10,192 nucleotides of DNA from assembly GCA_947313765.1 (NCBI GenBank), contig CAMZNQ010000351.1, positions 1-10,192 on the forward strand, read 5' to 3'. The notes under the pieces are model-generated. The model ran no database searches and was not told where the DNA came from. It worked only from the letters and a program-made list of their open reading frames with translations. Shown here in pieces: positions 7,414 through 8,602 of the stretch (position 1 is its first letter; the number at the start of each line of letters is the position of its first letter). Made by a program: the position numbers and the translations under genes. The DNA comes from an uncultured Sulfurovum sp. GTDB taxonomy: Bacteria > Campylobacterota > Campylobacteria > Campylobacterales > Sulfurovaceae.

Positions 7414-7665
7414 TTACTTAACATCTTGTGTAATCAGATTTTCATCTGAATATATCTTCTCTAAACGATTTTTTATTAACACCTGCTCCTCTTGAAATGT
7501 GATTTTCAATGATTGAAGGTGTGATATATCTCTACTAAGATAGTAGATGTGATTATCCAAATAGATGTTTGGAATTGTCAAAAGCAGTGCTAAGGCTATG
7601 GAGAAGATAGTAATCAAAAGAGTACTTCCTGTAATTCCATTCTCCTCTTTTTTAATATTTTTCAC
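7414..7665 (-). CDS. Small bitopic membrane protein, FtsL-like cell-division protein
   Basis: An 83-residue protein with a charged N-terminus (KNIKKEENG), one hydrophobic segment at about 13-33 (TGSTLLITIFSIALALLLTIP), then a helical stretch at about 34-72 with heptad-like spacing of L, I and V typical of a short periplasmic coiled coil. This layout, the size, and the position directly after rsmH match FtsL, which with FtsB and FtsQ links the division ring to septal peptidoglycan synthesis in many bacteria. FtsL sequences are too divergent to prove it by eye, so the call rests on architecture and synteny. The start is GTG, with a strong AGGGGGG site nine bases upstream, and it lies within the out-of-frame tail of the rsmH reading frame. 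It is followed after three bases by the RND permease. Confidence 0.66.
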   Translation of the reverse strand: MKNIKKEENGITGSTLLITIFSIALALLLTIPNIYLDNHIYYLSRDISHLQSLKITFQEEQVLIKNRLEKIYSDENLITQDVK

Positions 7666-7681
7666 TATTATTTACCCCCCT
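7663..7681 (-). promoter_or_regulatory. Ribosome binding site for the FtsL-like gene (GTG start)
   Basis: On the reverse strand AGGGGGG (7675-7681) is followed by nine bases and GTG (7663-7665). The site is inside the downstream rsmH frame. If ribosomes stop at the rsmH TGA about 120 bases earlier, this gene must be initiated independently from this site rather than by termination-coupled reinitiation. Confidence 0.6.
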
Positions 7682-7762
7682 AAAAATAAATGTTCTAAGC
7701 TTTGCTGAACGTGAACGAGCATTAATCTTTAGCTCCTCTTTTGTTGCTGTAATCGGTTTACG

Positions 7763-7786
7763 CACCAACATCTTTCCAAGTTGATG
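7763..7786 (-). other. Possible stem-loop 15 bases downstream of the rsmH TGA
   Basis: On the reverse strand CATCAAC (7780-7786) can pair with GTTGGTG (7763-7769): seven pairs including one G-U, with a ten-base loop TTGGAAAGAT. The hairpin begins 15 bases after the TGA, in the distance range of bacterial SECIS elements. The bases also encode the conserved HQLGKMLV region, so the pairing may be chance. No bulged U on the 5' side like that of E. coli fdhF is seen. Confidence 0.25.
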
Positions 7787-7801
7787 ATTTTTATTTCTTT
7801 T

Positions 7802-8602
7802 TCACCTCATAGCTTGTGCGTCACAGATATAAGAGGTTGCCCACTTTTTATATCTATTTTTAACTAGTCTATCTTCTAATGAGTGAAAAGTGATTAGTGA
7901 AACAACTGTACCCTTTAACTCTCCTGCCATAAACTTATCTTCTAAGACATCTAAAAGCCCCTCTATCTCGCCCAATTCATTATTTACTTCAATACGAATC
8001 CCTTGAAAAGAGAGTGTTGCAGGGTGAATCTTACCTCTATTTGGAATAAGAGTTGAGATTATATCTGCCAACTCTTTTCCACTCTCAATGGGCTTCTTTG
8101 AACGTGCTTGAACAATAGCAGAAGCAACCTTGCGATATGAGCGTACCTCTCCATAATGATTTAAGATATACTCCAATCTCTCTTGGCTATATTTATTTAC
8201 AACTTCATAAGCCGATAGCTCTGCTTGAGTATCCATTCTCATATCTAAAGTTTCACTCTCAAAAGAGAATCCTCTATCCATCTTATCTAGTTGCAAAGAG
8301 GAGACACCAAAATCTGCCAACACTCCTACAATAGGTCTCTCTTTTAGAGTAGGTAGGATTGTAGCAAATGTACCTTTATAGAGTCTTACTCTCTCATTAA
8401 AAGGTGTCAATCTCTCTTTTGAAAACTTTAATGCTTCATCATCTCTATCAATACCTATATGTTTAATCTCTTTAAAAGAGTTCAATATTGCTTCAGAGTG
8501 ACCAGCATAACCCAATGTACAATCGACAAAATATCCATCTTTTAGTTGGGAAAAGCTATTTAAAACCTCTGATAATAGAACGGGGATATGAGGTATATTC
8601 AT
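7802..8602 (-). CDS. rsmH: 16S rRNA (cytosine(1402)-N4)-methyltransferase, open frame ending at an in-frame TGA
   Basis: RsmH (formerly MraW) uses S-adenosylmethionine to methylate N4 of C1402 in the decoding centre of 16S rRNA. The 266-codon open frame contains HIPVLLSEVL (5-14), the SAM motif VDCTLGYAGHSEAIL (26-40), GIDRDDEAL (50-58), ADFGVSSLQLD (96-106) with DRGFSF (109-114), LDMRMD (119-124), LSFQGIRIEVNNEL (197-210) and ITFHSLEDR (237-245). The family is usually about 300-316 residues, so this product is some 50 short. The missing C-terminus is encoded in the same frame after the TGA (7802-7804). The ATG has an AAAGG site eight bases upstream. nagA ends 43 bases before it. The catalytic and SAM regions look intact; whether the short form is stable and active cannot be told from sequence. 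Confidence 0.93.
   Translation of the reverse strand: MNIPHIPVLLSEVLNSFSQLKDGYFVDCTLGYAGHSEAILNSFKEIKHIGIDRDDEALKFSKERLTPFNERVRLYKGTFATILPTLKERPIVGVLADFGVSSLQLDKMDRGFSFESETLDMRMDTQAELSAYEVVNKYSQERLEYILNHYGEVRSYRKVASAIVQARSKKPIESGKELADIISTLIPNRGKIHPATLSFQGIRIEVNNELGEIEGLLDVLEDKFMAGELKGTVVSLITFHSLEDRLVKNRYKKWATSYICDAQAMR

Follow-up and report, generated by a model that had tools for sequence, protein, structure and literature searches.

An in-frame TGA, very probably an ordinary stop codon, within a small local lesion of rsmH in a draft Sulfurovum genome

RsmH, also called MraW, is the 16S rRNA (cytosine1402-N4)-methyltransferase (PF01795; 1n2x, 1m6y, 1wg8, 3tka). Methylation of C1402 is held, in excerpts of one earlier study (PMC5053481), to raise decoding fidelity. 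For B. subtilis, sections of a preprint (PMC13317604) report that an mraW allele truncated by 109 residues behaves as a loss of function and that an mraW deletion mutant grows without obvious phenotype. In METTL15, according to the available text of PMC10828496, an N-terminal and a C-terminal segment together form the seven-stranded sheet, and the C-terminal one extends to the final residue of the construct. Belinky et al. (2021, PMC7918605) described in-frame stops of bacterial genes, and the portions of that article used here give 71% as the share of its pairwise comparisons that show no mismatch in a span of 30 bases around the stop. Here we describe an rsmH gene with an in-frame TGA and compare it with these systems.

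The window, that is, the whole stretch of 10,192 nucleotides that was analysed, is contig C351 of an assembly (G000) of 2.02 Mb in 379 contigs that is 83% complete. By RsmH, its closest named relatives are Sulfurovum and 'Campylobacteraceae' MAGs. The order of genes on the minus strand is a nagA-like gene, rsmH, a small gene without a Pfam match, an RND transporter, ferrochelatase and an M15 peptidase, followed on the same strand by a UPF0029 (yigZ-like) protein, a VTT-domain protein and proA; the names nagA, yigZ and proA are what we take these genes to be. The parts of rsmH are listed in Table 1. The short frame matches PF01795 with 290.9 bits (cut-off 27) and covers profile positions 2-261 of 309. 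The first-pass annotation of this DNA had described a 266-codon rsmH frame ending at a TGA (7802-7804), and the same frame continuing for 49 codons with RKPITATKEEL and NARSRSAKLR and no indel; both statements are borne out by the sequence (ORF 8602-7802 on the minus strand, closing TAA at 7654-7652). It had also given 316 residues as the length after readthrough and as normal for the family; the other homologues listed are 309-331 amino acids long, and all of them (119/119) carry the NxRSRSAKLR tail. The usual end of the family is near residue 309, so that about 7 of the 316 read-through residues extend past it, and this end varies among relatives. Stop-to-stop stretches of at least 49 codons make up 38 of 1434 in all six frames of the window, and a 49-codon continuation that carries the family tail is more than chance. 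At 7652-7681, where the continued frame extends beyond the usual family end, it also runs into the next gene, which begins with the GTG at 7665; six G in a row ahead of this GTG may be the ribosome-binding site of that gene. The cluster of the window protein (P0001) consists of one contig only, and there is no second record of the sequence. A second intact rsmH is absent from the assembly, in which one weak partial match only was found.

Table 1. Positions of the rsmH frame, its stops and the local lesion in the window
Feature	Position	Strand	Remarks
rsmH as a gene caller sees it	7802..8602	-	266 sense codons and TGA; from the ORF list, PF01795
In-frame TGA, codon 267	7802..7804	-	column is cysteine in 80/80 relatives
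In-frame continuation, 49 sense codons	7655..7801	-	codons 271-307 are the conserved tail, including NARSRSAKLR
TAA closing the continued rsmH frame	7652..7654	-	read from the sequence
Lesion, codons 258-270	7793..7831	-	C258Y, C267stop and C269R, with changed codons 268 and 270; length unchanged

The TGA belongs to a broader local lesion that was overlooked in the first-pass annotation. Protein columns were counted as conserved when at least 97% of 80 relatives from sequenced genomes agreed (n=139). The rsmH of the window matches 136 of these 139 columns and departs only at 258 (Y in place of C), 267 (a stop in place of C) and 269 (R in place of C), the sites of three out of four cysteines in a CxC-x6-CxC motif. 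This motif is present in 119/119 other homologues listed, each of its four columns is conserved across the 80 loci, and in a wider sample the four cysteines are all kept in 36/36 other loci; the samples of relatives overlap, with G024, for example, present in more than one. An alignment of rsmH from relatives at codon 267, which had been proposed as a check, gave cysteine in all 80 loci. Residues 1-257 are normal at every conserved column, as are the conserved residues between the two cysteine pairs. Codons 268-270, directly after the TGA, read K-R-N and are abnormal; normal tail sequence resumes at codon 271, past which point 15/15 conserved columns are matched. A restart of translation after the stop was among the readings set aside: an SD-like GAGGTGA is found at the lesion, but the first in-frame ATG, as read from the sequence, is 30 bases past the TGA. 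CxC-x6-CxC may perhaps be a small metal site in RsmH. In the literature consulted on zinc and RsmH and on cysteine and MraW a metal site in bacterial RsmH is not mentioned, and the word 'zinc' occurs 0 times in the accessible text of PMC13317604 and PMC10828496.

At the level of single bases, 29 of the 921 positions compared in rsmH carry a window-only base, one absent from all 16 relatives. Seven of these are in codons 258-270 and 7/7 are changes to A, against 2/22 in the rest of the gene (Fisher p 2.3e-5, in a test made after the pattern was seen). Seven window-only changes within 13 codons do not fit a plain single nonsense mutation; a recent nonsense mutation was among the options of the first-pass annotation. 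Under a stricter count, restricted to columns at least 90% conserved in the 16 relatives, the patch is changed at 3/23 columns, all to A, and codons 1-257 at 14/399, 5 of them to A. K, R and N are here preferentially encoded by AAA, AGA and AAT, and a K-R-N segment would therefore be A-rich in any case. The rsmH of L046, which has 48 unique changes overall, contains a denser run of them elsewhere in the gene, with 8 in 13 codons. In 78 gene pairs we counted nine-base blocks with at least six changes to one base: with the assembly's own gene as focal sequence there are two such blocks to A, one of which is rsmH, and one to G, and with the reference as focal sequence there are four, all to A. 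In L003, on the same contig as L032 and the nearest relative among the genomes, the DNA past the block is nearly identical to that of the window. A template switch from a nearby copy was considered and rejected, as the exact words of 9-14 bases of the patch are found nowhere within 2 kb in the window. A second copy of the 23-base stretch over the patch is absent from the assembly at up to 3 mismatches.

We consider it very probable that the TGA is an ordinary stop inside a small local lesion of an otherwise normal rsmH, with the lesion lying either in the record or in the organism. RF2 would recognise the TGA as an ordinary stop within the abrupt lesion of codons 258-270, and the gene as written would give a 266-residue RsmH that lacks both the last core strand and the NxRSRSAKLR tail. 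Such a short product, judged by the structure model of an intact relative (P0002), should not make m4C1402 of 16S rRNA. The model has a mean pLDDT of 85.5, with 75 in residues 261-270 and 63 in 271-280. Its last strand is at 301-306, and among the matches listed the structural alignments to solved RsmH, METTL15 and other class I methyltransferases end at 307-309. The encoded frame has neither the NxRSRSAKLR tail, which exists only past the stop, nor this strand. As the last core strand of the model is in the lost tail, the 266-residue product is probably inactive.

The tail past the stop looks healthy, which would mean that the lesion is very recent or is absent from the organism. Compared with L032, tail codons 271-307 have 8 synonymous differences and a single nonsynonymous one. 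In comparisons with 12 relatives, the pN/pS values are 0.03-0.21 for the tail and 0.16-0.21 for codons 1-257, with no close sister carrying the TGA among them. These values show that the rsmH tail was under strong purifying selection until recently; they say nothing on present translation. With past selection on the tail this strong, the lesion is recent or not real. We infer, rather than see, the recency of the lesion, and the same holds for its origin and for the loss of activity. An intact tail is equally predicted by productive readthrough, and this counts against the explanation that we prefer, an ordinary stop in a local lesion.

As a control of the assembly, 40 of its 379 contigs and the window were compared with stretches of G024, G036 (and L037). 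This yielded 74 gene places with 23,118 aligned residues in all; none was flagged for a frameshift, and five of them contained stops. The stop-bearing places are rsmH, the yigZ-like gene at 185 of 187, which is its own end, two places on L135 and one on L136. One of the two places on L135 carries four stops, and L135 has no Rfam match and, for one query, no Pfam match. The stop-bearing match on L136 (15-431) is at a contig edge, and its reference has a pilin-type N-terminus. With the L135 and L136 matches set aside as unexplained, rsmH is the only recognised gene among the 74 places to be interrupted by a stop in mid-gene. The control sample contains 30,049 N bases in 250,539. In the window the other genes are open; the RND gene departs at 6/352 conserved columns, not clustered in one patch, and the small gene downstream of rsmH departs at 5/36 columns (7 relatives only).

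Between the two places in which the lesion may lie, we judge a local consensus error to be a little more probable than a genuine, recent inactivating mutation. We would give a little under an even chance to the possibility that some 40 bases of this fragmented MAG were miscalled or wrongly assembled and that rsmH is normal in the organism. Some assemblers fill ambiguous bases with A, which is a possible source of such a patch. An error of this kind is consistent with a single abrupt patch in which 7/7 changes are to A, with the absence of any other departure in the 136 conserved columns, with the 379 contigs and the lack of a second record, and with the lack of a local donor to explain a real block replacement. 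It is less easily reconciled with the open state of the other window genes and the unclustered departures of the RND gene, or with a control in which, two unexplained contigs apart, no recognised gene other than rsmH is interrupted midway by a stop. Blocks of changes to A only are moreover found in nature, being more numerous with the reference as focal sequence, and the favoured codons make K-R-N A-rich; the stricter count lowers the number of changes, the run in L046 is denser, and the small downstream gene has departures of its own. The other possibility, which we hold to be credible though also short of even, is that a multi-base change together with C258Y wrecked the motif and made the stop in the organism, where loss of m4C1402 would be tolerated. 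In-frame stops are widespread in bacterial genes and mostly short-lived, according to the parts of PMC7918605 that deal with them, and loss of MraW is tolerated in B. subtilis in the sections cited of the preprint PMC13317604. The rsmH tail has also been broken separately, by a frameshift, in G290. Yet a lesion that packs so many changes into 13 codons and leaves all other conserved columns untouched is unlike gradual decay, a single block event would be without a donor word of 9-14 bases within 2 kb, and C258Y would be needed as a second change in the same motif.

The four options offered in the first-pass annotation included these two, which remain, and productive readthrough and recoding, which have lost ground. 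Readthrough, in which a near-cognate tRNA would decode the UGA at a low level and give a full-length RsmH without the cysteine motif, seems to us improbable. An A after UGA favours leakiness. The low pN/pS of the intact tail and the changes C258Y and C269R, as in a lineage that drops the motif and keeps the protein, fit this reading, and passages of PMC7918605 describe TGA as a leaky stop that is usually decoded as Trp. Against it, the TGA is shared by orthologues in 0/45 other genomes, the column is cysteine in 80/80 loci, and loss of the motif with function kept would be unprecedented in the 36 loci of the wider sample. One leaky stop also leaves the loss of two further invariant cysteines unexplained, and in the same passages of PMC7918605 most in-frame stops are short-lived and assumed not to be functionally recoded. 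An old, shared readthrough stop can be rejected, since it was seen in none of the relatives checked. In an order-wide search for rsmH 387 of 398 genomes had a match, and among the matches listed the sole other one with a stop is in G290, as a frame change near the tail: at this locus (L121; G290:C1:1800200-1801500, on a contig of 2.88 Mb) KKEPTQ is the last stretch read in the normal frame, and the motif NPRSRSAKLR is in the next frame. A same-genus assembly has, besides a 73% identical rsmH match, a second one that is 52% identical (G017:C80:11120-11905) and may be on a contaminant contig. As to recoding, RF2 is present in the assembly (499 bits) and TGA ends 13/143 long ORFs in the sampled contigs, so that a code in which UGA is reassigned is not supported. 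Selenocysteine at codon 267 has a UGA in a cysteine column to recommend it and is nonetheless extremely improbable: SelA has no match in the assembly, the single match similar to tRNA-Sec is below the cut-off and is a tRNA-Leu, and folding around and after the UGA is no better than in shuffles (z -0.36). The assembly being 83% complete, absent genes are weak evidence, and two of the other three motif cysteines are gone too. It is also very unlikely that the 266-residue protein is a working shortened RsmH. Its SAM-binding and helical parts are normal at all conserved columns to residue 257, but the tail that it lacks is found in 119/119 other homologues listed and holds the last core strand of the model, structural matches reach 308-309, and in METTL15, by the text available of PMC10828496, the C-terminal part belongs to the sheet.

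Should the patch be an error, it illustrates how a minor fault in a draft metagenome assembly comes to look like recoding in a conserved gene; it is the neighbouring residues that betray the fault, with three invariant cysteines lost and all changes to A. Should the lesion be real, nature has produced here a loss-of-function allele of an rRNA methyltransferase that is widely conserved. The finding would be of wide interest only if the unlikely readthrough reading were true. We can then speculate about a Sulfurovum-like lineage without the otherwise invariant four-cysteine motif of RsmH, in which full-length enzyme would be made only through UGA readthrough and leakiness would set the level of C1402 methylation, with a possible feedback loop through the fidelity of decoding that this methylation is held to raise; we think this decidedly improbable.

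Residues 1-257 of the window protein are like those of known RsmH/MraW at every conserved column, and the locus differs from them in that its open frame closes at profile position 261 of 309 and that it lacks three cysteines of the motif. The truncated mraW of B. subtilis, as described in those sections of PMC13317604, shares with the rsmH of the window the loss of the C-terminal part. That allele is a one-base insertion that arose in laboratory selection, unlike the patch seen here. The short-lived in-frame stops of Belinky et al. (2021), in the portions of PMC7918605 referred to above, combine a nonsense codon with signs of purifying selection, as is the case here. Unlike those stops, the stop in the window is common to no other species and sits in a cluster of changes.
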